Of a stretch of 64,000 nucleotides of DNA, positions 12,845 through 26,043 are shown piece after piece. The notes beneath the pieces were generated by a model. That model saw only the letters and a program-made list of their open reading frames with translations, made no database searches and was not told where the DNA came from. A program made the position numbers and the translations under genes. This stretch comes from Thermococcus sp. SY098 (lineage in GTDB: Archaea; Methanobacteriota_B; Thermococci; Thermococcales; Thermococcaceae): NCBI RefSeq assembly GCF_035621495.1, contig NZ_CP141821.1:896760-960759 (forward strand), in the 5' to 3' direction. Numbering within the stretch: position 1 is the first letter of the stretch; each line of letters starts with the position of its first letter.

Positions 12845-15010
12845 TCAGACCTTCAAAAACTTCGCATTTATAGCGACGATAACAGTGCTCAGGCTCATTA
12901 ACAAAGCACCTACGGCTGGACTTAACAGCACCCCATAGTTGTAGAGCACACCCGCAGCCAGAGGAATAGCAAAGGTGTTGTATCCTGTTGCCCATGCCAA
13001 ATTCTGAACCATCTTTTTATAGGTGGCCCTTGCGAGATGTATCGCGGTTATGACATCCCTCGGGTCGTTCTTGACGAGGATTATGTCGGCGCTCTCTATC
13101 GCCACGTCTGTACCGGCTCCGATGGCTATTCCAACATCGGCTTGAATCAGAGCCGGGGCGTCGTTTATGCCGTCGCCCACCATCGCCACAGTGTAGCCCT
13201 GCTCCTGGAGCTCCTTGACCTTCTCTGACTTCTGGTGAGGTAAAACTTCAGCGAAGAAACCGTCGAGGCCGAGCTCCTCGGCAACCCACTTTGCGACCTT
13301 GGCGTTGTCGCCGGTAAGCATGTAAGCCTTTATGCCCATCTCGTGGAGCTTCTTCACAGCCTCTCTTGATTCAGGTCTTATCCTATCGGCCAAAGCCAAA
13401 GCCCCGACAAGCTTACCATCAATAACCAAAAACACCACAGTCTTACCCTGCTCCAAGACTTTGTTAACGCGCTCGTCCTCCCTCCACAGCCCGTTCTCCT
13501 TCAGGAATCCCGGGCTTACAACGAGGACTTCCTTTCCGTTGATGACACCCTGGACACCCTTGCCAGGAAGAACCTTCGACTCACTGACCTCGTAGATCTT
13601 AAGGCCGAGCTCCTTGGCTTTCTCAACTATTCCCTGGGCTATCGGGTGACTTGAGTGGGACTCAAGTGCCGCCGCATATTTCAGGATTTCCTCTTCACCG
13701 AGCTCATCCAGCGCTATTATGTCAGTTACTTCGAACTTGCCTTCGGTCAGCGTTCCGGTCTTGTCGAAGACGACCACCTGAACGTCCTTCGCTCTTTCAA
13801 ACGCCTCCCTGTTCCTTATGAGGATTCCCTTCTTGGCCGAGATCGACGTCGAGACCGAGACGACCAGCGGGACAGCCAGGCCTAAAGCGTGCGGGCACGT
13901 TATGACCATGACGGTGACCATCCTCTCAAGGGCGAAGACGAAGGGCTTGCCGAGGTAGAGCCATGCCCCGAGCGTTATCGTTCCGGCGGTTATGGCTATG
14001 AGCGTGAGGTAAAAAGCAGCCCTGTTAGCTAAATCCTGCGTCCTTGACCTTGTCTCCTGTGCCTGCCTGACGAGCTCAACGACCTGCATCAGGTAGGTGT
14101 CCTTTCCGGTCTTCTCTATCCTGACCTTTATCGCTCCCTCAAGGTTTATCGAGCCGCCTATTACAGTGTCACCAGGTTTCTTATAGACGGGCTTCGACTC
14201 ACCTGTCAACATAGCTTCGTTTACGCTGGTTTCTCCTTCTATTATGATACCATCAGAAGGTATTTTCTCACCGGGTTTGACAAGGACTATATCACCTTTC
14301 TTCAACTCACTGACTGGAACATCTTTTATTCCCTCAGGGGTCACAAGATGAGCCTCAGTAGGCATGAGCTTTATGAGCTCCTCTAAGGCTCTTGAAGCGC
14401 CGAGAACGGAGCGCATCTCGATGTAGTGGCCGAGAAGCATGATATCGATAAGCGTAGCCAGCTCCCAGTAGAAGGTCTTACCCGGCAGGCCAAAGGTTAC
14501 AGCTACACTGTACGAAAATGCAACGGTGATTGCCAGCGCTATCAGCGTCATCATTCCGGGTAATTTCTTTTTGATCTCCTCTATCATGCCATTAAGGAAC
14601 GGCCAGCCACCGTAGAAGTACACCACTGCTGAGAGTGCAAACAGAACATACTGATCCCCTCTGAATGTAAAAGTGAATCCTAAAAACCTCTGTATTAGAG
14701 GAGAGAGTAGCAGTATCGGGATCGTAAGTATTGCGGAGATTATAAAGCGCTTCTTGAAGTCCTCCATCATCATCTTGTGATGCTCCGCGTGGGAGTGTTT
14801 GTGTTCTTCGTGCCCCTCGTGCTCGTGTCCGGCGTGTTCTTCATGGGCGTGTTCGTGCCCTTCATGCATCTCATGTTCCATCCCGTGCTCCTCATGCCCA
14901 CTTTCGTGGGCGTGCTCCATGTTCTTCATCTCGGGAGCTTTTTCAGCTCCATCGTGCACGTGTTCGCCGTGCACCATCTTTTTCTCATCCATATCAGACA
15001 CCATATGCAT
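12845..15010 (-). CDS. copB: CopB-type P1B ATPase (CPH), copper exporter
   Basis: About 721 residues. A long N-terminal His/Glu-rich tract (EHAHEEHAGHEHEGHEEH and similar) precedes the membrane domain. The transport helix carries CPH (ITCPHALGLAV) rather than CPC, the mark of the CopB subgroup linked to Cu(II)/Cu(I)/Ag(I) export. DKTGTLTEG holds the phosphorylated Asp, and TGDN and GDGINDAPAL are intact. ATG at 15010 is preceded by GGAG; a longer frame from 15043 lacks a ribosome site and would overlap the TATA-like TTAAATACT. It complements the CPC-type CopA that begins at the left edge. Confidence 0.9.
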   Translation of the reverse strand: MHMVSDMDEKKMVHGEHVHDGAEKAPEMKNMEHAHESGHEEHGMEHEMHEGHEHAHEEHAGHEHEGHEEHKHSHAEHHKMMMEDFKKRFIISAILTIPILLLSPLIQRFLGFTFTFRGDQYVLFALSAVVYFYGGWPFLNGMIEEIKKKLPGMMTLIALAITVAFSYSVAVTFGLPGKTFYWELATLIDIMLLGHYIEMRSVLGASRALEELIKLMPTEAHLVTPEGIKDVPVSELKKGDIVLVKPGEKIPSDGIIIEGETSVNEAMLTGESKPVYKKPGDTVIGGSINLEGAIKVRIEKTGKDTYLMQVVELVRQAQETRSRTQDLANRAAFYLTLIAITAGTITLGAWLYLGKPFVFALERMVTVMVITCPHALGLAVPLVVSVSTSISAKKGILIRNREAFERAKDVQVVVFDKTGTLTEGKFEVTDIIALDELGEEEILKYAAALESHSSHPIAQGIVEKAKELGLKIYEVSESKVLPGKGVQGVINGKEVLVVSPGFLKENGLWREDERVNKVLEQGKTVVFLVIDGKLVGALALADRIRPESREAVKKLHEMGIKAYMLTGDNAKVAKWVAEELGLDGFFAEVLPHQKSEKVKELQEQGYTVAMVGDGINDAPALIQADVGIAIGAGTDVAIESADIILVKNDPRDVITAIHLARATYKKMVQNLAWATGYNTFAIPLAAGVLYNYGVLLSPAVGALLMSLSTVIVAINAKFLKV

Positions 15011-15101
15011 AATTTCTCCAAGATAGTATTTAACCATTTTCATTTCAAATTTGAAAGATTACGAAAACTAAATCGTGACTAAAAAGAAAAAGTAATTGAG
15101 T

Positions 15102-15668
15102 TCATTCCTTCATCATGTTCTCGATTTCCTTCAGCCTCTTTTCAGGTTCGAGATCCTCACCAGCGGATGAGATCATAAGACCCTCGGCCATCTCAACGGT
15201 TTCGAGGTCGAACTCACCGGTCAGGATGCTCTCGCTGGTGAGGTCTATCATCGTGTTCAGCGCATCCTCAAGGTTCTCGACCTTGCCCATTGCCTTTTCA
15301 AACTCGACCTGCATCTTTGCCACGTCCTCTGCTCCCGGCCCTTCGGCTATGCTCTTAACAACGTCTTTGCTGAACTGAATGAAGTCTGCAGAAACCTTCA
15401 CAAGCTCCCTCTGAATCTCGGCCTCCTCCATGAGGAGGAGTAGCCTCTTCGCCTGCTTTATCCTTTCCTCAAGGGCAAGGTACTTCATGGCGCTCCTCTT
15501 GAGGAGGGCCTCGTCACCGAGCTTCGCCGCCTCCTTCCCCTGGAGAAAAATCTTACGCTTCAAATTTTCGAGGTTGCTGATGTACTGCTTCAACGCCATC
15601 TTGGCCTTCCTCATGCGTATCTTCCTCTCTATCTCCTTCTCTTCCTTCGACTTCCAGAGCTTGACCAT
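15102..15668 (-). CDS. ESCRT-III/Snf7-like coiled-coil protein C
   Basis: About 188 residues, last gene of the kinase operon. A basic N-terminal hairpin (KEIERKIRMRKAKMALKQYI...RKIFLQGKEAAKLGDEALLK) is followed by helices and an acidic C-terminal half (EDALNTMIDLTSE). The pattern VAKMQVEFEKAMGKVENLED recalls the Vps2/Vps24 type of ESCRT-III (I/VxxxxxEFE, then M/LE). The end, LEPEKRLKEIENMMKE, is reminiscent of a MIT-interacting motif 1 with R-L-x-x-I spacing, though not exact. ATG at 15668 follows GGAGGTG by 8 nt; GTG at 15677 is an alternative. The ESCRT-III assignment is an inference from charge pattern, length and the neighbouring Vps4-like ATPase. Confidence 0.55.
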   Translation of the reverse strand: MVKLWKSKEEKEIERKIRMRKAKMALKQYISNLENLKRKIFLQGKEAAKLGDEALLKRSAMKYLALEERIKQAKRLLLLMEEAEIQRELVKVSADFIQFSKDVVKSIAEGPGAEDVAKMQVEFEKAMGKVENLEDALNTMIDLTSESILTGEFDLETVEMAEGLMISSAGEDLEPEKRLKEIENMMKE

Positions 15669-15673
15669 AACCT

Positions 15674-16408
15674 TCACACCTCCCCAAACACGACGACAGT
15701 CACGTTGTCTTTGGTAACCTTCAGGGCTTCCCCGATCAGCGCCTCCGCTGCCGTCCTGGGGTCTGATTCAAAGACGAGCTTTCCTATAATCCCCTCATCG
15801 ATGTAGTCGTGGAGGCCGTCCGTGCTGAGAAGCAGGACATCCCCGGCTTTCAGCTCCCACACGTAGGAATCAATCCCAAAGTCAACGCCGAGGGCCTTTG
15901 TAACGACGTGCCTCATGGGATGTTCTCTGGCCTCCTCCTCCCTAATGACTCCGCGCTCAATGAGCTCCTGAACCACCGAGTGATCCCTTGTCCTCTCAGC
16001 TATCTCTCCACCCCTCACAAGATAGGCCCTGCTGTCGCCGGTGTTTGCTATTATTCCCTTTCCGTTTCTCACGAATGCGGAGGTAAGCGTCGTGCCCATC
16101 TTCCCCGGCCCGGGCGACATCTCCACCATCCTGCGGTGGGCATCCTCGTAGGCCCTTAGAAGGAGGTCCTTTACTCTCTCCACTCCCATGCCGCGTGTAT
16201 AACCCCTCTCAAAGGTCTCACGGAGCAATTCAACGGCCACCTTCGAGGCCAGCTCTCCCCCCTCATGCCCCCCAAGGCCGTCGGCAACGGCCAGGAGGTA
16301 GGCGTCGCCGAGGGGCAGGATGAGGAACGCGTCCTCGTTCTTCGCCCTGCCCCCGGGGTGCGAGATGCCCCAGACGATCCCATCAACGCCACCGGCTTGC
16401 CCGCTCAT
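15674..16408 (-). CDS. PP2C-family protein phosphatase
   Basis: About 244 residues with the PPM/PP2C metal-binding motifs: RAKNEDAF near the N terminus, ADGLGGHEGGELAS, TGDSRAYLV, LLLSTDGLHDYI and KDNVTVVVF at the end. It removes phosphate from Ser/Thr using two Mn/Mg ions coordinated by these aspartates. ATG at 16408 overlaps the AAA gene stop (ATGA). Its obvious partner is the Hanks-type kinase two genes upstream; the coiled-coil proteins and the AAA ATPase are the likely substrates. Confidence 0.9.
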   Translation of the reverse strand: MSGQAGGVDGIVWGISHPGGRAKNEDAFLILPLGDAYLLAVADGLGGHEGGELASKVAVELLRETFERGYTRGMGVERVKDLLLRAYEDAHRRMVEMSPGPGKMGTTLTSAFVRNGKGIIANTGDSRAYLVRGGEIAERTRDHSVVQELIERGVIREEEAREHPMRHVVTKALGVDFGIDSYVWELKAGDVLLLSTDGLHDYIDEGIIGKLVFESDPRTAAEALIGEALKVTKDNVTVVVFGEV

Positions 16409-17586
16409 CCCCCGAACTCCTCCGCCCACTTTTCATAGCGCTCGATGTCCTTCTTTGTCAGGGGGCTCTTTATCTTCCTGAACGCCTCCTCGAAGTCCCT
16501 CATCTCAAGCGGGCGAGTTCTCAATGAGCGCTTCCTCAGCTCCTCGAACGGAAGCCCAGCAAGCCTGTGGAGGTCTCTGTTCTCCTCACGGATCATGTTC
16601 CATATGGCCTCCTGACACAGGTTCCTGATGTCCCTGCCGGAGTATAGACGCCTCACGCTCTCCTCCGCTATCGCGTCGAGGTCGAGCCTCGAAATATCAA
16701 GCCCCTCAGTGTGTATTCTCACTATTGCCTTGGTCGCCTCTTTGTCCGGCAGGGGCACGTAAATCCTCTTGGGGAAGCGCGAGAGCACCGCCTCATCTAA
16801 ATCCCAGGGTGTGTTTGTGGCGGCAAGCGTGAGGACGAGCTTCTCATCCCCTCCCCCATGGAAGCCCTCAAGCTCCGTGAGGAGCGTCGAGAGCATCCTC
16901 CGGGTGGCTTCGCTGGTGTCGTTTGAACGCCTCGTGGTCAGGGCGTCTATCTCGTCGAGGAACACTATGCTCGGGGCTTTTTCTCTCGCGACCTCGTAGA
17001 GGGCGGAAATTATCTTGCTCGACTCGCCGAAGTACTTGCTCAGGACGTTTGACGCTTTGACGTTGAAGAAGGTGGCGTTTAAGCTCCCGGCGGCGGCCGA
17101 GGCGAGGAGCGTCTTACCCGTTCCGGGAGGCCCAAAGAGGAGTATGCCCCTCCACGGCTGAACCGCGGCGGGTTTTTTGAGGGCCGCTATCACGACCGTC
17201 TCCATCATGAGGAGCTTGACGTCCTCAAGGCCACCTATATCGTCCCACGTCGTCCTGGACTTGGATATAAGCCCCAGCACGTACTCCCTGAACTGGTCTT
17301 CCTCGTCTTTCTCCTGGGCCGTGCTCTTTCCTTCGGCGCCGACAACGGCCTTTCGGCCGTATTCGCCCCTCTCTATCTGCCCAGCTACATCTTCCCACTT
17401 CTTCGCCTTCTTAAGGTAGAGCTCCCCGTTGTAGGGGACGTGCCTGGCCAGCTGTCTGAGTATGGAGGCGCACCGGAGGGCGCTCTTTTTCGCCCTCTCT
17501 ATGTCTCCCGCGGCGACAGCCCTTTCAAACTCCTTCTTGGCCCTCTCGAACTCCGTAAGGAGGGGTCCCGAAAGGTCAACAGGCAT
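16405..17586 (-). CDS. Vps4/katanin-like AAA ATPase with N-terminal MIT-like bundle
   Basis: About 393 residues. Residues about 7-75 form three predicted amphipathic helices (LLTEFERAKKEFERAVAAGD, then ERAKKSALRCASILRQLARH, then ELYLKKAKKWEDVAGQIER) with the length and helix spacing of MIT domains. The AAA module has Walker A GPPGTGKT (152-159), Walker B IVFLDE (207-212) and the second region of homology NTPWDLDEAVLSRFPKRIYV, which is typical of the Vps4/katanin/spastin clade. The C terminus (SPLTKKDIERYEKWAEEFGG) matches the C-terminal helix of Vps4. MIT domains dock ESCRT-III tails and the ATPase disassembles the polymer. It overlaps the kinase gene by 4 nt if started at GTG 17592; ATG 17586 has the better ribosome site. 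Confidence 0.82.
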   Translation of the reverse strand: MPVDLSGPLLTEFERAKKEFERAVAAGDIERAKKSALRCASILRQLARHVPYNGELYLKKAKKWEDVAGQIERGEYGRKAVVGAEGKSTAQEKDEEDQFREYVLGLISKSRTTWDDIGGLEDVKLLMMETVVIAALKKPAAVQPWRGILLFGPPGTGKTLLASAAAGSLNATFFNVKASNVLSKYFGESSKIISALYEVAREKAPSIVFLDEIDALTTRRSNDTSEATRRMLSTLLTELEGFHGGGDEKLVLTLAATNTPWDLDEAVLSRFPKRIYVPLPDKEATKAIVRIHTEGLDISRLDLDAIAEESVRRLYSGRDIRNLCQEAIWNMIREENRDLHRLAGLPFEELRKRSLRTRPLEMRDFEEAFRKIKSPLTKKDIERYEKWAEEFGG

Positions 17587-17588
17587 CC

Positions 17589-19310
17589 TCACACCCCCTC
17601 GAATCCAAGCTTTATCTTGTGGACGATTATCTCGGCCTTCTCGACCAGCTCCTCGGGAACATCGAGGCCGTTCTCAAGGCGGAGCCTGAGCTGCTCCCTT
17701 AAAGCGAGCAGTTCTTCCCTCACCTCTCCCCTCGCGTAGTGAGCCAGGTCGTCGGCGTACTTGAGTGCATTAACAAGGTCGTTGAGCTTCAGGTACAGGA
17801 GGAACAGCTCGCCCGCGTAGTAGGCGCTCCTTGACATGTCGTTGATTGAAACGCTTTTGCTGAGGTTCTCGCGGTAGTTCTTCCCAAGGAACTCGGCCAA
17901 ATCCCTCTGGAGCTCCTCAACCGACTGGTAGCGCTCCTCCTTGTTCTTCGCGAGGCACTTCATCACGACCGGTTCAAGGGGCTTCGCATCGGGGTTCAGC
18001 TGACCCGGCGGCACTGGCTCCTCAAGGGTTATCTTCGACGCCACCTCGACGAAGTCCTCCCCCTCGAAGGGAGGCCTCCCGGTAAGCAGCTCGTAGAGAA
18101 CCGCCCCTATCTGCCAGATGTCAGTCCTCTCATCGGTTCCGCCGAAGCGGGAGCTTATCTGCTCCGGGGCAGCATAGAGCGGTGTGAAGCTGACCGTGTG
18201 GGTCGTCCTGCTCTCCTTGAGGAGCTTGCTGAGCCCCCAGTCGCTCACCTTGGCCCTCCTGCCCTTGAGCAGGATGTTGCTCGGCTTGAGGTCGCGGTGG
18301 ACTACGCCTTTGGAATGGGCGTACTTCAGCCCCTCCGCAACGTCGAAGATTATCCTCGCGGCCTTTTCGGGACTGAGGGGCTTTTCGAGCTTCGCAAGAC
18401 TCGTCTCGCAGTACTCCATCTCAAGATAGGGGAGGGGGAATATGTTGTAGTCGTGGAGCTCGACTATGTTCGGGTGGCTGAGGAGCGACCAGTTCCTTAC
18501 CTCCCTGAGGAATGTCTTGCCCCCCTCCTCCGTCAGACTGAGCGGGACTTTTAGGGCGACAACGCTCCCATCGTGCTTCTCCGCCCGGTAAACCCTCGCA
18601 AAGCCGCCCTCACCGATGGGCTCGACCTTCCTGTACCTCGCGAAGAGCTCCTCCAGCGGGGTGCGGGGAGTGCCGCCGGTAGAGTCCTGTCTATTCCCTG
18701 TGGGAACAGGGACTGGGGCAGGAACGGGGGTTTTGCGTTCTGTCATAGGTCTCTCGATTATTTCGGTTCGCACTTTCACCTTGGCGCTTACCATGCCTGA
18801 GCGAACCAGGACCTTGGCGCTGACCCTGCCCCGTCCCCTCGGAACGGCGGTGACGGTCTGAGAGACGTACTCCCCGGGCCCGACGGCCCTGAAGTACACC
18901 CTCGTGGAGCTGAGGTCGAGGTGCCTGGAGAGGTCGCCGAGGTCTATCTCGACGTTTATGGTGCCCCTGAGCAGGTTCCTAAAGCCAATCCTGAGGGGTA
19001 TCTCCTCCCCAGCGTGGACCTTGGGTGGAAGCTCGATTATCACCGACTTGCGGAGGAGCTCCTTCATGTCCTCCTTCGGTACCGGAGGAACTGGCGGAAC
19101 CGTTTTGGGATACCGCCTCTTGTACCTTCTGGACTTCGAAACGTCCTTGAGCAGGTGTTTTATCAGGTGTCCAAACCACATGACCATCACGATGAATATT
19201 ATAAATCCGGCCGCCCTCCCGAAGATGGCGGATACTATGACTATAAACACGAAGAGCTTGACGAGGCCCTCCAGGATGTCGTCGTCCATGAACCAGTGCC
19301 CCATGTGCAC
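17589..19310 (-). CDS. Membrane-anchored Hanks-type Ser/Thr protein kinase
   Basis: 573 residues. Two hydrophobic helices (about 17-50), a beta-sandwich-like segment (about 88-185, IELPPKVHAGEEIPLRIGF), a Pro-rich linker, a kinase domain (about 228-475) and a helical tail. G-loop GEGGFA (233-238), Lys254, HRDLKPSN (338-345), DWG (357-359, in place of DFG) and APE (381-383) are present, so it should be active. GTG at 19310 is preceded by GGAGGG; ATG at 19304 is the alternative. It opens the second transcription unit and its stop overlaps the AAA gene. Anchoring at the membrane fits control of a membrane-associated polymer. Confidence 0.9.
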   Translation of the reverse strand: MHMGHWFMDDDILEGLVKLFVFIVIVSAIFGRAAGFIIFIVMVMWFGHLIKHLLKDVSKSRRYKRRYPKTVPPVPPVPKEDMKELLRKSVIIELPPKVHAGEEIPLRIGFRNLLRGTINVEIDLGDLSRHLDLSSTRVYFRAVGPGEYVSQTVTAVPRGRGRVSAKVLVRSGMVSAKVKVRTEIIERPMTERKTPVPAPVPVPTGNRQDSTGGTPRTPLEELFARYRKVEPIGEGGFARVYRAEKHDGSVVALKVPLSLTEEGGKTFLREVRNWSLLSHPNIVELHDYNIFPLPYLEMEYCETSLAKLEKPLSPEKAARIIFDVAEGLKYAHSKGVVHRDLKPSNILLKGRRAKVSDWGLSKLLKESRTTHTVSFTPLYAAPEQISSRFGGTDERTDIWQIGAVLYELLTGRPPFEGEDFVEVASKITLEEPVPPGQLNPDAKPLEPVVMKCLAKNKEERYQSVEELQRDLAEFLGKNYRENLSKSVSINDMSRSAYYAGELFLLYLKLNDLVNALKYADDLAHYARGEVREELLALREQLRLRLENGLDVPEELVEKAEIIVHKIKLGFEGV

Positions 19311-19352
19311 GCGTATCCCTCCACTTCCTGGTGAAACAGGCAGATTATGCCA

Positions 19353-19360
19353 TTATTTAA
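19353..19360 (-). promoter_or_regulatory. TATA element of the kinase-AAA-PP2C unit
   Basis: On the minus strand AAAAGAGG (BRE-like) is followed by TTAAATAA, about 45 nt before the kinase start. It shows that the kinase, ATPase, phosphatase and coiled-coil C genes can be transcribed separately from the upstream four genes. Confidence 0.45.
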
Positions 19361-19426
19361 CCTCTTTTGATATCGTTTTGTTCGCTTAAGACAAGTTCAT
19401 GAGGGAGGTTCATGCCGGAGTGGAGG

Positions 19427-20032
19427 TCACTCAGTGACTACCTCCTCCCCCTTATCCTTCTCCCCCGTGACCTTCTCGGCCGCGCTCTCGGGCTCAAGCT
19501 CGCCCTCCTTCACAGCCTGTATCGTCCTCATTATCTCCGCCAGCTCCTCGTCCTCCTCGAACTCGACGCCGGCACCAATGGCCTGGTCTGTGTAGCCGAG
19601 CATGGTGTTGAGGTTCTCGTTGAGGTTCTGGGCGTCGAGCTGCATGCTGACGAGGTTCTTTTCGAGCTCCTCAGGGGACATCTTCCTCAGGAGCTCCCAG
19701 GTCGGTGTGCCCTTCAGTATGGCCTCGTTCTCCTTGATTATCAGCAGGTTCGCCACGAGCATGAGCTGTTTGTTGAGCTGGGCGTGGGTGTTCTGGAGGC
19801 TCTGCTTTTTCCGGTTCAGTGTCTTAATCTTGGTCGCTATGGTGAGCTCCTCGCTTTTGCTCCTCGCTTCCTTTGCCCTCTGGAACAGCGCCGCTATCTG
19901 GGCGTCTATCTCGGCTATCTCGTCCTCTATCTTCCTTATCTGCATGTCGAGCTTGACCTGGTTCTCCCTGAGCTGGTCAATCGGTATGTCCAGGGGGTTC
20001 TTCCTCCCGAAAAACCTTGAAAGGAGGCCCAT
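19427..20032 (-). CDS. ESCRT-III/Snf7-like coiled-coil protein B
   Basis: About 201 residues. It begins MGLLSRFFGRKNPLD, like the amphipathic FGRKK N terminus of Snf7/CHMP4, then a long basic alpha1-alpha2 hairpin (DQLRENQVKLDMQIRKIEDE ... TLNRKKQSLQNTHAQLNKQL), then an acidic C-terminal half with EEDEELAEIM and GELEPESAAEK. The run of basic N-terminal and acidic C-terminal halves in about 200 residues is the ESCRT-III charge layout. ATG at 20032 overlaps the stop of protein A (TGATG). Paralogous to A and more distantly to C. Confidence 0.58.
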   Translation of the reverse strand: MGLLSRFFGRKNPLDIPIDQLRENQVKLDMQIRKIEDEIAEIDAQIAALFQRAKEARSKSEELTIATKIKTLNRKKQSLQNTHAQLNKQLMLVANLLIIKENEAILKGTPTWELLRKMSPEELEKNLVSMQLDAQNLNENLNTMLGYTDQAIGAGVEFEEDEELAEIMRTIQAVKEGELEPESAAEKVTGEKDKGEEVVTE

Positions 20033-20628
20033 CACAGCTCCTCCTCCGTCTCCCTCTCAAGCTTGGGTGAGGCTATCTTCTCCGTCACTTCCTCAACGTC
20101 CGCTTCGCCGGTCTCGACCTTGGCCCAAGCCTCCATGAGCTCCCTCTCGGTCTGGTCCTCCGTTCTCTCAAACTCGGCTATGTCCATCTCGAAGACCCTG
20201 TTCAGGTTCTCGACCATCTCGTCGAACTCCCTGCCGTCGAGGCTCACCTTGACGAGCACGCTTTCCAGCTGCTCGGGCTCAACTTTGGAGAGCTTGTCCC
20301 AGAGGCCTATCTTCCTGAGCTCCTTCTCGTACTTCTTGACGACTATCAGGTTCTTGACGAAGGTGTACTGCTTCTGTGCCGTCGTGAAGTCCCTCAGCCT
20401 GAGCTTCTGCTCCATGTCGAGGCTCTTGATCTCCTGGGCGAGCATCTTCTTCTTGAGCACGTCCGCCCCGATGCCCTCCTGGAAGAGCTGCTTCTTTTTC
20501 TTCTCTATGCGCTCTATCTCCTTCTTCGTCCGCTCAAGCCTGTTTCTCAGCCTTATCTCCTCTTCCTGAAGCTCCCTAAGGGAGAGCTTTTCAATCGGGT
20601 TCTTCCTAAACCTGTCGAGTATTCCCAT
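20032..20628 (-). CDS. ESCRT-III/Snf7-like coiled-coil protein A
   Basis: About 198 residues with the same plan as protein B: MGILDRFRKNPIEKL at the N terminus, a strongly basic helical hairpin (RLRNRLERTKKEIERIEKKK), a second helix with a long LRDFTTAQKQYTFVKNLIVV segment, and an acidic tail (EFERTEDQTERELMEAWAKV). GAGGTGA is 5 nt upstream of ATG 20628; ATG 20634 and GTG 20637 are in frame. It lies 2 nt after the large coiled-coil gene. Likely a co-polymer partner of B. PspA/Vipp1, which shares the superfamily fold, is an alternative reading. Confidence 0.58.
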   Translation of the reverse strand: MGILDRFRKNPIEKLSLRELQEEEIRLRNRLERTKKEIERIEKKKKQLFQEGIGADVLKKKMLAQEIKSLDMEQKLRLRDFTTAQKQYTFVKNLIVVKKYEKELRKIGLWDKLSKVEPEQLESVLVKVSLDGREFDEMVENLNRVFEMDIAEFERTEDQTERELMEAWAKVETGEADVEEVTEKIASPKLERETEEEL

Positions 20629-20638
20629 CACCATCACC

Positions 20639-22462
20639 TCACTTCCGTATCAGCACGAGTCCAAATCCATCTATGTATTTCACCAGGTTGCCCTCACGGG
20701 CGATTTCATAGAACGCCCTCCTCACGTACTCCTCATCACCGCAGTCGAGGCACTCGCTGAGCGGCAGGTAGTCCCTGCCCTCAAGCTTTTTCCTCACGCA
20801 CTCCCTGACCTTCGCGTACATCTCCTCGTCGAGCTCAAGGCGCACCAGGGGGACGAGTGCCTTGGCGTAGCGGTCGTTGGGGTTGTGGATTACCTCGCCG
20901 CTCTCTGTGTCGAGGAGTATCAGCGAGACGTTCTCCGAGTAGAAGTTCCTGTGGAAGTCCTCCGACGAGACGTACCTCCTCACCCTCTCCTCGAAGCCGA
21001 GGGGTGAGGCGATAACGAGGACCGTCCTTGCGTTCTCCTTTGAGTCCCTCGCATCGATGAGGTGCACGTTGACCTCCGCCAGGGTGAGGGGGTCGGTGTC
21101 GAAGCCCAGCTCCGCCAGCCTTTCGACCCTCGTCAGGTAAATCCCCCTGACGAGTATCCTCTCCTTCCTTCCGAGGAGCTTCTTCTCCTTCAGGACTACC
21201 TCAACGTACCTGTTCTCCGGCAGGTTCTTGAGGGACTTCTCGTCAAGCTTTCCCGCAAACCTTGACGTGTCCTCGCCCCTCTTCTCTTCAATCCTCTCAA
21301 CGGAGTAGGTTTTGCCGAGGAGCCGCACTTCACCCGCGAATTTGCTCTTCATCCTGCCCACGAAGTTGAGCTCACCGATCCTCGCTTCGTCCCTGAGCAC
21401 CAGGCGGGAGCCCTTCTCGACCTTGCCCGACATCGTGAGGATTTCTTCTATCTTGCTTTTCAGCAGGCTCTCCTTCTCGGAAAGCTCAAGCTCTCTCTTC
21501 CTCAGCTCCATCTCCTTCTCCCTGAGTTCAAGCTCCCTCCTCCTGAGCCTCTCCTCAAGGAGCCTCGCCTCGCGCAGGGCCTCTTCCTTCGCCTTTGCAA
21601 GCTCCTCCTCCAGCTTTTTCCTCAGCTCCTCGTCCTTAAGCTCCATGAGCCTCCTGGCGAGCTCCTCCTTCTCGCGCTCAAACCTCTCGATCAACTCCTC
21701 CTTCTCCCTGCGGAGCCTCTCTATCTCCTCAATACCCGATGACCTGAGCTCTGTCTCAAGCCTCTCACGCTCCTCCTCGAAGAACTCCACCATCTCGGCT
21801 ATCCTCTTTTTCAGTTCCCTTACCCTGGCCTCGTAGCTCTCCCTGACTGCTTCAACTTCCTCCGTCTTTTCGCGCTCCCACTCCTCCATGAGCGTCCTGA
21901 ACCAGCCGTATTTGCTTGCCTCGTTTATTGCGGCATCGATTTTCTCGCGGTAGCTCTTCCATGTCCTCTTGAGGTAGTAGCGTAGGGGGAGCTTTACCTC
22001 GGGGTCTTCGAGCTGCTCATCTATCCACCTGTCCATGCCGAGGTAGTAGGTCTTTAGGAGCTGGAGGGTCTCCTCGTCCCTGCGGTAGAGCTTTTCAAGG
22101 ATGTCCTCCTTCGTAGTTATCTCAAAGACGTTGTACTTCAGTATCTCATCTATCAGGCCTATCTCGCGTTCCGAGAAGCGCTTTTCCGCAGGTGAAAACT
22201 CCTCCCCCTTCTTCCAGAAGCTCCACGCCAGCACTGCCAGTGCCGCCTCGAACTTCGCCCTGAACGTGCTGTCAAGGTCCTTAAGGAAGTCCCCGCATTC
22301 TCCTTCGAGATAGCGCGAGTATGCCTCCTGAATCCTCTCCCACAGGCTCTTCCGGGTCTCGAAGTCCTCGACGGTAACGTCCCTGCCCTGCCGCAGAACC
22401 CTCTCAGCCGGACGGAGCAGGTTCCTCACGCATTCGGGGTTTCCCTCGTTGAACACTACCAT
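20639..22462 (-). CDS. Long coiled-coil protein with C-terminal winged-helix-like region
   Basis: 607 residues, family not recognised. An N-terminal helical region (about 1-210) is followed by an unbroken Glu/Arg/Lys/Leu-rich coiled coil (about 215-355), a beta-rich region (about 360-540, with RSRLV/GELNFVG and HLIDARDS segments) and a final helical/winged-helix-like block (about 545-607, VRRAFYEIAREGNLVKYIDG). CdvA of crenarchaea also joins a coiled coil to an ESCRT-III-recruiting region, and ESCRT-II binds ESCRT-III through winged helices, so a recruiter role is a reasonable guess. ATG at 22462 is preceded by GAGGTGG. Confidence 0.6.
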   Translation of the reverse strand: MVVFNEGNPECVRNLLRPAERVLRQGRDVTVEDFETRKSLWERIQEAYSRYLEGECGDFLKDLDSTFRAKFEAALAVLAWSFWKKGEEFSPAEKRFSEREIGLIDEILKYNVFEITTKEDILEKLYRRDEETLQLLKTYYLGMDRWIDEQLEDPEVKLPLRYYLKRTWKSYREKIDAAINEASKYGWFRTLMEEWEREKTEEVEAVRESYEARVRELKKRIAEMVEFFEEERERLETELRSSGIEEIERLRREKEELIERFEREKEELARRLMELKDEELRKKLEEELAKAKEEALREARLLEERLRRRELELREKEMELRKRELELSEKESLLKSKIEEILTMSGKVEKGSRLVLRDEARIGELNFVGRMKSKFAGEVRLLGKTYSVERIEEKRGEDTSRFAGKLDEKSLKNLPENRYVEVVLKEKKLLGRKERILVRGIYLTRVERLAELGFDTDPLTLAEVNVHLIDARDSKENARTVLVIASPLGFEERVRRYVSSEDFHRNFYSENVSLILLDTESGEVIHNPNDRYAKALVPLVRLELDEEMYAKVRECVRKKLEGRDYLPLSECLDCGDEEYVRRAFYEIAREGNLVKYIDGFGLVLIRK

Positions 22463-22471
22463 GGTACCACC

Positions 22472-22990
22472 TCACAGCAGGAGGGAGAGCTCCCTCTCCA
22501 GCTTTCTCGCCATGTCCTCAACCGCGGTGCCGTAGCCCTCGATGGCTATGACGACGGCGGTTCCGTTATCCCTCTCTTCAACCAGCACCTCAACCTCCAT
22601 CCTCCCCTTTTTGGTGTACGCTCTGTATCGGGAGACGTTTCCCTCAGAGGAGACGTAGTATGCACCGAATTTTGAGAGGACGTACTTCAGCAGTTTTTGA
22701 ACCACCACTGGCTCTTCCCGGGTCAGATACTCAATCTCCCTCCTCGTTGGGGAGACCCTTGAGCCTATGTCCTCGGGCTCCACGCGGTACACCCTCACCT
22801 TCCCCTCGGTCGGGGGGTCGAGCTTTGAGAGGAGCTCCTCCGCGAAGCCCTCAACGTCGCTGGAGTCTATTATGAAAGATATCCCCCTGACCTTGGAAAT
22901 CCTGGCGCGGTTTGACCACTTGTCCAGCAGGTATTCAACGCGCTTTCGCTCCGCGTCGTTCTCGTAGCCGACTATGAACAGGTGCGGCAT
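22472..22990 (-). CDS. Unknown small protein heading the ESCRT-like operon
   Basis: 172 residues, mixed alpha/beta with no membrane helix. It begins with LFIVGYENDAERKRVEYLLD, a beta-alpha unit, and ends in an amphipathic helix (AVEDMARKLERELSLLL). I do not recognise a family. GGAGGGTGAACCGTC precedes ATG 22990. It is 9 nt before the coiled-coil gene, so it belongs to the first transcription unit. It could be a regulator or an adaptor of the system. Confidence 0.6.
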   Translation of the reverse strand: MPHLFIVGYENDAERKRVEYLLDKWSNRARISKVRGISFIIDSSDVEGFAEELLSKLDPPTEGKVRVYRVEPEDIGSRVSPTRREIEYLTREEPVVVQKLLKYVLSKFGAYYVSSEGNVSRYRAYTKKGRMEVEVLVEERDNGTAVVIAIEGYGTAVEDMARKLERELSLLL

Positions 22991-23138: not shown

Positions 23139-23678
23139 TCAAACCCTGTCAACGACGCCCTTCAGTATCTCCTCGACCTCTGAGGCGACCTTCAACAGCT
23201 CGTCGTTCCCGGTTATGCTCATGGCCCGAGTCGGGAGCAGAAGCCCCACGTAGGTCTTTCCGCCCTTCACGTAGACTATCAGGTTGCACGGAAGGAACGA
23301 GCCGCTGTTGATGTCGATGCCTATGAGCTGGCTTGAGAACTTCGGGTTGCAGGCACCGAGGATAACGTAGGGCTCCATGTCAAGGTCGAGCTTCTCCTTG
23401 AAAAGCCGGTCAACCCTGACCTCGCTGAGGACACCGAAGCCCTCCTTCTTCAGCTCTTCCTTGACCCTCGCCACGGTCTCGTCAAAGCCTGTCTCGACCT
23501 CGCGGAGGTAGGAGTACTCCTTCTGCCCTTCCATTCCTTTCATCCCGTGCATGCCGTGGTGGCCCTTGCCCTTACATCCTCCTTTCATTTTTCCTTTGCC
23601 TTTCATTCCCTTCATGCCACCCATTTTCCCGTGGCCCTTCATTCCGCCGTTTTCCATTTCATTCATTTCGCCTTTCAT
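23139..23678 (-). CDS. DUF302 protein with Met/Gly/Lys/His-rich N terminus
   Basis: 179 residues. Residues 1-52 are low complexity (repeated GMKG, GKMKGG, HHGMHGMKGM) and rich in possible Cu/Ag ligands. Residues about 53-179 form a DUF302 domain (VETGFDETVARVKEELKKEG, then VILGACNPKFSSQLI, then LLPTRAMSI). DUF302 proteins are small alpha/beta proteins of unknown function, often near metal or sulfur genes. AGGTGATCC precedes ATG 23678. There are two further DUF302 genes in this window (31116-31493 and 45310-45663), but only this one has the metal-ligand-rich extension. Confidence 0.75.
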   Translation of the reverse strand: MKGEMNEMENGGMKGHGKMGGMKGMKGKGKMKGGCKGKGHHGMHGMKGMEGQKEYSYLREVETGFDETVARVKEELKKEGFGVLSEVRVDRLFKEKLDLDMEPYVILGACNPKFSSQLIGIDINSGSFLPCNLIVYVKGGKTYVGLLLPTRAMSITGNDELLKVASEVEEILKGVVDRV

Positions 23679-23964
23679 TTTGGATCACCTTTTTCTTCAT
23701 TGATACTTACTCTGTTGAAAAGGGTAAAAGGCTTGTCCTTAGCAATTTAGAAATCTTGGATGGCAAAAATTGTCAGAATTAAAGTGATTCCTTAAGCTCC
23801 TTATAAAGTGCATCCAAAAGGAGAACTGTTGTGATTCCGGAAGTGGGCGTTCCACCTACAAAATACTAACCACTCCGTTGAGAGGGACATTTCATGGAGC
23901 TTAGGGAAAACTCACAAGGTCTACAGAATGTTGAGGGGTTGGAAAGGGAAAGATAAGGAAAGCC
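23679..23964. promoter_or_regulatory. Intergenic region with DUF302 promoter
   Basis: 286 nt without a supported gene. At 23732-23749, minus strand, TAAATTG-N6-ACAAG is a degenerate copy of the box shared by the metal genes, about 55 nt before the DUF302 start. The rest, nearer the Zn/Cd ATPase stop at 23965, shows short open frames only and no family similarity I recognise. Confidence 0.4.
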
Positions 23965-26043
23965 TCACCTCAGAATCCTCATCGCGTTGAAGACCGCTAT
24001 TAACGCTACGCCAACGTCGGCAAAGACCGCCTCCCACATCGTCGCCTCTCCGAGGATCCCAAGGCTTATGAACGCTAACTTTACCCCGAGGGCGAAGATT
24101 ATGTTCTGCCATACTATCCTCTGCGTCTTCCTGGCTATCCTGATGCCCCTCGGCAGCTTGGATGGCTTGTCGTCCATTATAACGACATCTGCAGTCTCTA
24201 TTGCCGCGTCGCTACCCAAGGCTCCCATGGCAACCCCCACATCAGCCCTTGCCAAAACAGGAGCATCATTTATGCCGTCTCCTACGAAAACTATTTTCTC
24301 GTTGGGTGCTTTTTCCTTCTCAAGCGCCTCAATGACCTTTACCTTGTCCTCCGGCAGGAGCTCTGCATAGAAGCCGTCCAACCCAAGTTGCCTCGCTATC
24401 TCAGCCGCAACATCTTTGTTGTCTCCTGTAACCATAACGACCTTCCTAACACCAAGGCGTTTGAGTTCCCTCACCGCAACCGGAGCATCTTCCTTTATCT
24501 CGTCTGAGATTATTATATAGCCCGCATACTTTCCGTTTATTACAACGTGAGCTACTGTTCCCTTAACGCGGCACGTGTCGTGCTCGATGTTAAAGCGGTG
24601 CAAAAGCCTGTCGTTGCCCACCATGACCTCAATGCCGTCTATCTTTGCCCTGACACCGTGCCCCGCTATTTCCTCGTACTCGACTATCTCCGCCCCGTTG
24701 ATTTCCTTTCCATAGGCCTCCTTTATCGCCTTGGCTATCGGGTGGTTTGAGTGCGCCTCCGCCAGAGCTGCGAACTTTATTATCTCCTCCTCGCTGAAGC
24801 CGTTCCTTGTCTCGATTTTTGTGACCTTAAAAACGCCCTTTGTCAGCGTTCCGGTCTTGTCAAAGGCAACTATTGAAGCACTGCTCAGGGCATCGAGGAA
24901 GTTGGAGCCCTTGACGAGTATTCCATCCCTTGCTGCTCTTCCAATACCCCCGAAGTAGCCGAGCGGAATTGAGAGGACAAGCGCACACGGGCACGAGATG
25001 ACGAGGAGCACCAGTGCTCTGTATACCCACTTCGAGAAGGGCTCGCCGAAGACAAACGGGGGAACTAAAGCTATAAGCACCGCGAGTCCGACGACAGCTG
25101 GCGTATAGTAGTGGGCAAAGCGTGTTATGAACTTCTCCGTCTTCGCTTTTCTCGCGCTTGCGTTCTCCACAAGCTCAAGAATTCTCGAAATGGTTGATTC
25201 CTTGAGCTCTTTTGTAACTTTGACCGTCAAAAGACCGCTCAGGTTTACCATTCCCGAGAGGATTTCCTCCCCTTCCTTCACAGTCCTCGGAACGCTCTCC
25301 CCAGTTAAAGCAGAGGTATCAACGCTTGAGCTTCCCTCGATGATAACTCCATCAACAGGAACCCTCTCACCTGGCTTTATGACAATTATGTCTCCCACTT
25401 TAAGCTCTTCGGGCTTGACTCTTACTATCTTATCGCCCACCTTGAGGTTTGCGTACTCCGCCTTTAATGCCAGCAGTGCCCTGATGGAGCGCCTCGACCT
25501 GTTAACCGCTAAGTCCTGGAAGAACTCACCCACGATGTAGAAGAGCATAACTCCCACAGCTTCGGGATATTCATGAATGGCAAACGCTCCCAGCGTGGCT
25601 ATGGCTATGAGGAAGTTCTCGTCAAAGACGTTGCCGTGGATTGAGTTCACAAAGGCGTTCCTGAGAACCTTCCACCCAACGAGGAGGTAGCTCACCACAA
25701 ATATCCCGAACACAAAAGGGTTGTCGTAGTTGTAGTAGTACCTCAGGACTATCCCTACGGCAAACAGCAGGAGCGAGGGGATTATGAAGTAGAGCATCCT
25801 CTTCGGGTCGTCGTGATCGTGATGATCGTGTTCATGCTCATGCTCCTCCTTTTCGATGATCTTAACCCCGGGCTCAACCCTCTTTATTATCTCCTTTGCC
25901 TTTTCGATGTCCCCTTCTATTATGGCTTCTTTGGTGGTGAAGTTGACCAGGGCAAACTCGAAGCCCTCCTTCTTTAAAGCCTCCTCTATTTCATAAGCAC
26001 AGCTTGCGCAGTCAAGTCCCTCCAATTTAAGCTTCTTCGGCAT
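23965..26043 (-). CDS. Zn/Cd/Pb-transporting P1B ATPase
   Basis: 692 residues. The N-terminal HMA domain has GLDCASC (C12, C15), and a His/Asp-rich stretch (EHEHDHHDHDD) precedes the membrane domain. The transport helix carries CPC (ISCPCALVLSIPLG), followed by DKTGTLTKG, GDNKDVAAE and GDGINDAPVL. MGALGSDAAIETADV and the overall pattern fit the ZntA/CadA (P1B-2) group rather than copper pumps, which have Asn/Tyr/Met in helices 7-8. The ArsR-type regulator gene is 2 nt upstream, so the two are co-transcribed. Confidence 0.88.
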   Translation of the reverse strand: MPKKLKLEGLDCASCAYEIEEALKKEGFEFALVNFTTKEAIIEGDIEKAKEIIKRVEPGVKIIEKEEHEHEHDHHDHDDPKRMLYFIIPSLLLFAVGIVLRYYYNYDNPFVFGIFVVSYLLVGWKVLRNAFVNSIHGNVFDENFLIAIATLGAFAIHEYPEAVGVMLFYIVGEFFQDLAVNRSRRSIRALLALKAEYANLKVGDKIVRVKPEELKVGDIIVIKPGERVPVDGVIIEGSSSVDTSALTGESVPRTVKEGEEILSGMVNLSGLLTVKVTKELKESTISRILELVENASARKAKTEKFITRFAHYYTPAVVGLAVLIALVPPFVFGEPFSKWVYRALVLLVISCPCALVLSIPLGYFGGIGRAARDGILVKGSNFLDALSSASIVAFDKTGTLTKGVFKVTKIETRNGFSEEEIIKFAALAEAHSNHPIAKAIKEAYGKEINGAEIVEYEEIAGHGVRAKIDGIEVMVGNDRLLHRFNIEHDTCRVKGTVAHVVINGKYAGYIIISDEIKEDAPVAVRELKRLGVRKVVMVTGDNKDVAAEIARQLGLDGFYAELLPEDKVKVIEALEKEKAPNEKIVFVGDGINDAPVLARADVGVAMGALGSDAAIETADVVIMDDKPSKLPRGIRIARKTQRIVWQNIIFALGVKLAFISLGILGEATMWEAVFADVGVALIAVFNAMRILR

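Follow-up and report, generated by a model that had tools for sequence, protein, structure and literature searches.

The window analyzed here is a 64,000-nucleotide stretch of the Thermococcus sp. SY098 genome, in which eight open reading frames (ORFs), all on the minus strand at positions 15102-22990, form an operon for ESCRT-III-like proteins, a Vps4-type ATPase, a Ser/Thr kinase and a Ser/Thr phosphatase (Table 1). The ORF list and translations bear out the original prediction of eight co-directional genes with exact coordinates, and its attribution to a Thermococcales-like genome also holds, the nearest named loci being those of Thermococcus metagenome-assembled genomes (MAGs). In the order of transcription the operon encodes a 172-aa protein, a 607-aa coiled-coil protein, E3, E2, the kinase, the AAA ATPase, the PP2C phosphatase and E1; neighboring ORFs either share 4-25 bp or are separated by 1-9 bp, the sole exception being a 116-bp gap between E2 and the kinase. 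The catalytic motifs of the ATPase, kinase and phosphatase are intact upon inspection of the sequences.

Table 1. Genes of the ESCRT operon, with positions in the window and the evidence for each assignment.
Feature	Position	Strand	Evidence
ESCRT-III E1, 191 aa, Snf7/CdvB-like	15102..15677	-	Snf7, AF2 model, PDB fold matches
PP2C-type Ser/Thr phosphatase, 251 aa	15674..16429	-	PP2C_2, Stp1/IreP, motifs
Vps4/CdvC-type AAA ATPase, 395 aa	16405..17592	-	AAA, Vps4_C, CdvC, tree
Membrane-anchored Hanks-type Ser/Thr kinase, 573 aa	17589..19310	-	Pkinase, hydropathy, tail alignment
ESCRT-III E2, 202 aa	19427..20035	-	Profile homology to E3
ESCRT-III E3, 201 aa	20032..20637	-	AF2 model, PDB fold matches
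607-aa coiled-coil protein, putative C-terminal winged helix, arCOG09748-like	20639..22462	-	Alignment to Chloroflexi homolog
172-aa protein, arCOG08177-like by position and size	22472..22990	-	Conservation

The three short proteins were predicted to be ESCRT-III-like, and this is supported for E1 and E3 by AlphaFold2 (AF2) models with their fold matches and for E2 by its homology to E3. E1 matches the Pfam family Snf7 with an E-value of 0.0016, under the curated cut-off, and E2 does so at 0.037; E3 has no Snf7 match in Pfam, and likewise none is seen for the E3 family, while a Chloroflexi ortholog of E1 reaches 4e-6. The E1 model (pLDDT 82.7) consists of helices at residues 2-53, 56-110, 116-153, 158-167 and 178-190, and CdvB and CdvB2 filaments of S. 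islandicus take all six top places among its PDB fold matches (probability 0.98-0.99, E-values 0.05-0.09). The E3 model (pLDDT 74.8) has a short helix (6-12), a hairpin (20-55/60-102) and then smaller helices, with Vipp1 (8qhx) and CdvB2 (9s97-9s99) leading its fold matches (probability up to 0.89, E-values 0.3-0.9). In this check by predicted structure, which had been proposed beforehand, both modeled proteins show an ESCRT-III-like order of helices, with modest E-values for the fold matches.

E2 and E3 are homologous to each other by hhalign (98%, E=1.8e-13), and the E3 profile picks up E2 at 1e-17 in a genome-wide search; E1 could not be linked to either by profile comparison and forms a separate family. 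Searching the PDB hidden Markov models (HMMs) with the profiles of E1, E2 and E3 gave no significant match, and once Chloroflexi members were added to the E1 profile the best match was CHMP2A (E=0.065). As models, fold matches and Snf7 scores combine with a constant Vps4 partner, the assignment of all three proteins to the ESCRT-III superfamily is convincing, with none of these lines being proof alone. The N-termini of E2 (MMGLLSRFFGRKNP, a stretch also given as MGLLSRFFGRKNP) and E3 (MGILDRFRKNP) are amphipathic and may serve in membrane binding, and the conserved C-terminal tails of both, e.g., V-K-E-G-E-L-E-P-E, may be bound by Vps4.

The 395-aa ATPase matches AAA (4e-38) and Vps4_C (1.2e-9) in Pfam as well as the CdvC model of NCBIfam (4.5e-59), the latter covering residues 90-393 only, and it carries the Walker A motif GPPGTGKT and the Walker B motif IVFLDEID. 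In Vps4 trees, from which TACK, Asgard and eukaryotic Vps4 were left out, its clade is separate from CDC48 with a support of 100/100. The N-terminus begins with the signature M-P-V-D-L-S-G followed by approximately 70 conserved residues, and this arrangement is common to the archaeal and most of the bacterial relatives. For membership in the "Main" clade of euryarchaeal ESCRT systems described by Makarova et al. (2024, mBio, PMC10936438), the published criterion accepts ESCRT neighbors in place of an MIT domain.

The identities predicted for the kinase and phosphatase, as for the AAA protein, are borne out by Pfam and NCBIfam, and hydropathy supports the membrane anchor of the kinase. The kinase has a hydrophobic N-terminal segment at approximately residues 8-55, a middle part of approximately 150 aa, which is labeled Ig-like on the basis of the literature alone (PMC10936438), a kinase domain at residues 226-467 (Pkinase, 1.9e-46) and a conserved tail that aligns with those of other operon kinases, including one from Chloroflexi. 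Kinases of sister loci are mostly receptor-like, with large parts ahead of the transmembrane segment; in the Chloroflexi locus these outer parts are PEGA and CARDB domains (Pfam). The phosphatase matches PP2C_2 (1e-15) and the Stp1/IreP model (8.5e-56), and its metal and phosphate motifs (NEDAF, VADGLGGH, NTGDSRA, LSTDGLHD and TKDNVTV) are visible in the sequence. The C-terminal 250 aa of the 607-aa protein align to a Chloroflexi protein with a C-terminal HTH_11 match (8e-5), which suggests a winged helix at this end. The 172-aa protein has no Pfam or PDB match and is kept in 8 of 8 Thermococcaceae operons and in Halobacteriota loci; the assignment of arCOG08177 as a Cas2-like and TBP-fold protein is taken from the literature alone (PMC10936438).

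Within Thermococcaceae, 25 genomes were compared: the source genome (2.03 Mb, G000) and 24 relatives. The operon is patchily distributed, being carried by 8 of the 25; six share all eight genes and their order (the source genome, G006, G013, G021, G014 and G010), so that the conservation check suggested along with the original prediction found the gene-for-gene order kept in five other genomes. In G003 and G024 the operon is expanded or re-ordered, with three and two kinases, respectively, and the G003 phosphatase bears N-terminal hydrophobic segments. Retention of the order in five genomes and its expansion in two show that the operon is not a chance arrangement. An orthologous ATPase, 74-97% identical, is present in 7 of the 24 relatives, and "solo" forms of Vps4, about 50% identical, occur in six further ones. 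ESCRT-III profile searches detected E2/E3 in exactly the eight genomes with the close type of Vps4 and E1 in seven of these (the exception being G024, in which the contig ends at the locus), and found no E1 or E3-family gene in the genomes with solo Vps4; ESCRT-III is therefore strictly linked to the close type of Vps4.

In two expanded operons (L026 1980-13293 and L027 1562-10798), PQQ-, PEGA- and macro-like outer parts of the kinases were recognized by eye, as though a single ESCRT machine received input from several sensors. The 607-aa protein, a good marker of the system, has homologs in 40 of the phylum's 115 genomes, and relatives of E2/E3 with the same partners around them are present in 9 of the 295 genomes sampled from the phylum to which G118 belongs (called Halobacteriota). 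One locus of G118 (L042), on a contig labeled as an Archaeoglobus MAG, is Thermococci-like with its Vps4 nested within Thermococci; either the contig is mis-binned or the transfer is recent.

The operon lies between the parts of a metal-resistance cassette, which occupy 12845-15043 and 23139-26043 (DUF302-CopB-CadA) in the window. On one side it directly adjoins the DUF302 gene (23139-23678), as is seen in six genomes from three genera, and on its other side in the window is a CopB-like P1B ATPase (12845-15043); both flanks align by blastn in G006, G013, G021, G014 and G010. Uninterrupted cassette loci (L132, L133 and L134) were found in three related genomes. In G015, G009 and G019, DUF302 adjoins CopB with a CadA-like ATPase beyond, as in the window, and a profile search found no E2/E3 gene in these genomes; the DUF302-CopB junction, read directly in G015 and G009, leaves about 75-80 bp between the genes. 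Because this site is empty in other genera and the GC content of the operon is above that of its surroundings (57.3% versus 46.5% in the rest of the window), the operon looks like an insertion into the cassette, loss from the cassette being the alternative.

Thermococci aside, scanning contigs with the E3 profile gave matches of 45-49% identity in two Dehalococcoidia records and one Chloroflexi MAG. The Dehalococcoidia contig G115:C107 contains a complete ESCRT locus (L050 8086-20276, with flanks in L091 and L092) in the order winged-helix coiled-coil protein, E3, receptor kinase (PEGA, CARDB and a transmembrane segment), E2, Vps4 and E1, followed by a second CdvC-like AAA protein, a second kinase, a PP2C phosphatase (kinase and PP2C lying in L092) and an aspartate kinase. 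One flank holds secF, secD, mraZ, rsmH, ftsA, ftsZ, meaB, hpf, pyrD and an aroH-type chorismate mutase; the bacterial genes of this contig score above NCBIfam curated cut-offs, and MraZ, RsmH and FtsA are typically bacterial families. A contaminant origin of this locus was considered and judged unlikely, as bacterial genes lie at both of its sides on the same contig. The same locus is found in the sister genome G116 (L053, G116:C78). Altogether, 4 of 294 Dehalococcoidia genomes match, one of them by a fragment at a contig end only, and the short contig of the Chloroflexi MAG (G117) may have been mis-binned. G116 also has a second bacterial ESCRT-III/AAA locus (G116:C129, L093 8254-17372), accompanied by a zinc-ribbon coiled-coil protein that by eye resembles SPFH proteins, as well as by large surface proteins and a transglutaminase-like protein.

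The Vps4 proteins of G115, G116 and G117 form one clade (99/98) within the archaeal Main set, beside Halobacteriota, and the enclosing node is supported at 95/92 in one of the trees and at 85/89 in the second; this position inside the archaeal set fits a transfer from archaea. Two other Chloroflexota genomes, G956 (L136/L137) and G958 (L135), have a Vps4 with M[PS]VDLSG together with an ESCRT-III-like gene and kinases, G956 also having PP2C and G958 a winged-helix protein; the Vps4s of these two group apart in a clade of their own (100/98). The G956 locus starts a 375-kb contig with ParA/ParB-like and transposase-like genes (by eye). In some Chloroflexota (L051 366-1649 and L135 57-1322), the winged-helix protein is without its coiled-coil half and instead has the DNA-binding domain HTH_17, a hint that the ESCRT scaffold may control transcription. 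Complete archaeal-type ESCRT systems (three ESCRT-III proteins, Vps4, winged-helix scaffold, receptor kinases and PP2C) very probably exist in bacteria; Dehalococcoidia would have gained theirs by archaeal transfer, and the Vps4 lineage of other Chloroflexota would be separate and branch more deeply. ESCRT systems had been said not to exist in bacteria, and a survey of PSP systems reported that Vps4-like ATPases had been transferred to bacteria, snf7 being replaced in those cases (PMC11237479); no paper on such systems in Chloroflexota was found in a search that left subscription papers, supplements and preprints outside, and these sets are likely the part most surprising to a specialist. If confirmed, the bacterial copies would show that bacteria can acquire a full ESCRT-III/Vps4 machine from archaea despite different membrane lipids, and that such a machine can coexist with a standard FtsZ divisome.

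The reading preferred for the operon, with a probability of roughly 0.65, is that of an accessory, phosphorylation-controlled membrane-remodeling machine of the euryarchaeal Main type. In such a machine the membrane kinase would sense an envelope signal and phosphorylate the winged-helix scaffold or the ESCRT-III subunits; E2 and E3 would bind the membrane through their short amphipathic N-terminal helix and then polymerize, with E1 co-assembling or capping the polymer. The N-terminal domain of the Vps4-like ATPase could grip the conserved C-terminal tails and disassemble the polymer, which would make the cytoplasmic membrane bud, undergo scission or seal, and the phosphatase would reset the switch. 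Several points weigh against this proposal. The N-terminus of the ATPase, predicted to be MIT-like, gave no HMM match to an MIT domain when N-terminal profiles were compared to Pfam and the PDB; all Foldseek E-values exceed 0.001, and long helices match promiscuously; and the arCOG09748 and arCOG08177 labels were given by likeness. The function is a prediction from genes and models, and the phosphorylation targets are candidates.

Repair of the membrane under envelope stress, after the manner of PspA/Vipp1, is a possible though rather unlikely alternative, in which E2/E3 would coat and seal damage, Vps4 would recycle them and the kinase would be a stress switch, no vesicles being produced. The best fold match of E3 is Vipp1, the outer parts of the kinases look sensor-like and the operon is within a metal-resistance cassette; however, with three distinct ESCRT-III subunits and a Vps4 of its own the operon exceeds the needs of PspA systems, and the position in the cassette may reflect shared mobility only. 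A mobile module for defense against viruses, e.g., one blocking or sealing virus exit, would account for the patchy distribution, the high GC content (57% versus 46.5%) and the site empty in other genera, and PADLOC assigns the kinase and AAA protein to defense models; since these matches are to generic kinase, AAA and phosphatase families, and the operon encodes neither a nuclease nor a toxin, this explanation is improbable.

The resemblance of E1 to CdvB and of the ATPase to CdvC could suggest a second, Cdv-like machine for cell division, but this is very improbable. As predicted, FtsZ is present, with three tubulin/FtsZ-family loci in the genome, and no CdvA family match is found among the eight proteins; the FtsZ-family genes, together with absence of the operon from most relatives and a cassette site that is empty in others, argue against a role in division. 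The accessory remodeling machine is also open to study, as Thermococcales are culturable and include species with and without the operon, and a phospho-regulated ESCRT system could therefore be tested apart from cell division.

Comparison with known systems places the operon among those already described. Like the Cdv system of Sulfolobus (CdvA/B/C), it has a CdvB-like ESCRT-III fold and a Vps4-type ATPase; in contrast, it adds a kinase and phosphatase, resides in an FtsZ host and is patchily distributed, and CdvA is not matched by any of its eight proteins in Pfam or NCBIfam, no genome-wide search for CdvA having been made. PspA/Vipp1 repair systems share the ESCRT-III superfamily fold and the amphipathic N-terminal helix of E2/E3, whereas the window operon has a dedicated Vps4, several paralogs and, in sister loci, receptor kinases. 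The solo Vps4 of Thermococcales has a similar N-terminus to its roughly 50% identical counterpart in the operon, and yet forms a clade apart (100/99), in genomes where neither E1 nor an E3-family gene was found. An earlier review stated that Thermococcales lack ESCRT-III and mentioned unpublished disruptions of Vps4 homologs in T. kodakarensis, an organism said to lack ESCRT-III, after which vesicle production was reportedly unchanged (PMC10117752).

Makarova et al. (PMC10936438) list Thermococcales among the carriers of Main-clade systems, note their solo Vps4, and propose phospho-control and roles in vesicles or sorting. The described content is Vps4, ESCRT-III, arCOG09748 (helical, coiled-coil and globular parts with a C-terminal winged helix) and arCOG08177, often with a Ser/Thr phosphatase and a membrane Ser/Thr kinase having a transmembrane segment, Ig repeats and a small helical tail. 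The predicted linkage of ESCRT-III/Vps4 to a kinase and a phosphatase, within an organism that has FtsZ, is upheld by gene content, conservation and models, but its novelty is not, as it had been published in that work, and the source genome itself may be among those in the supplementary tables. The roles first suggested for the operon, in vesicle release, membrane repair or envelope stress, are candidate roles. Vps4, ESCRT-III, the membrane kinase, the phosphatase and the FtsZ host are shared, the 607-aa and 172-aa proteins being the putative arCOG09748- and arCOG08177-type members, and the window phosphatase is without the N-terminal hydrophobic segments seen in G003. Nothing essential differs; the window has three ESCRT-III genes from two sequence families (E2/E3 and E1), fits the published description wherever it is testable and is a further member of the same kind.

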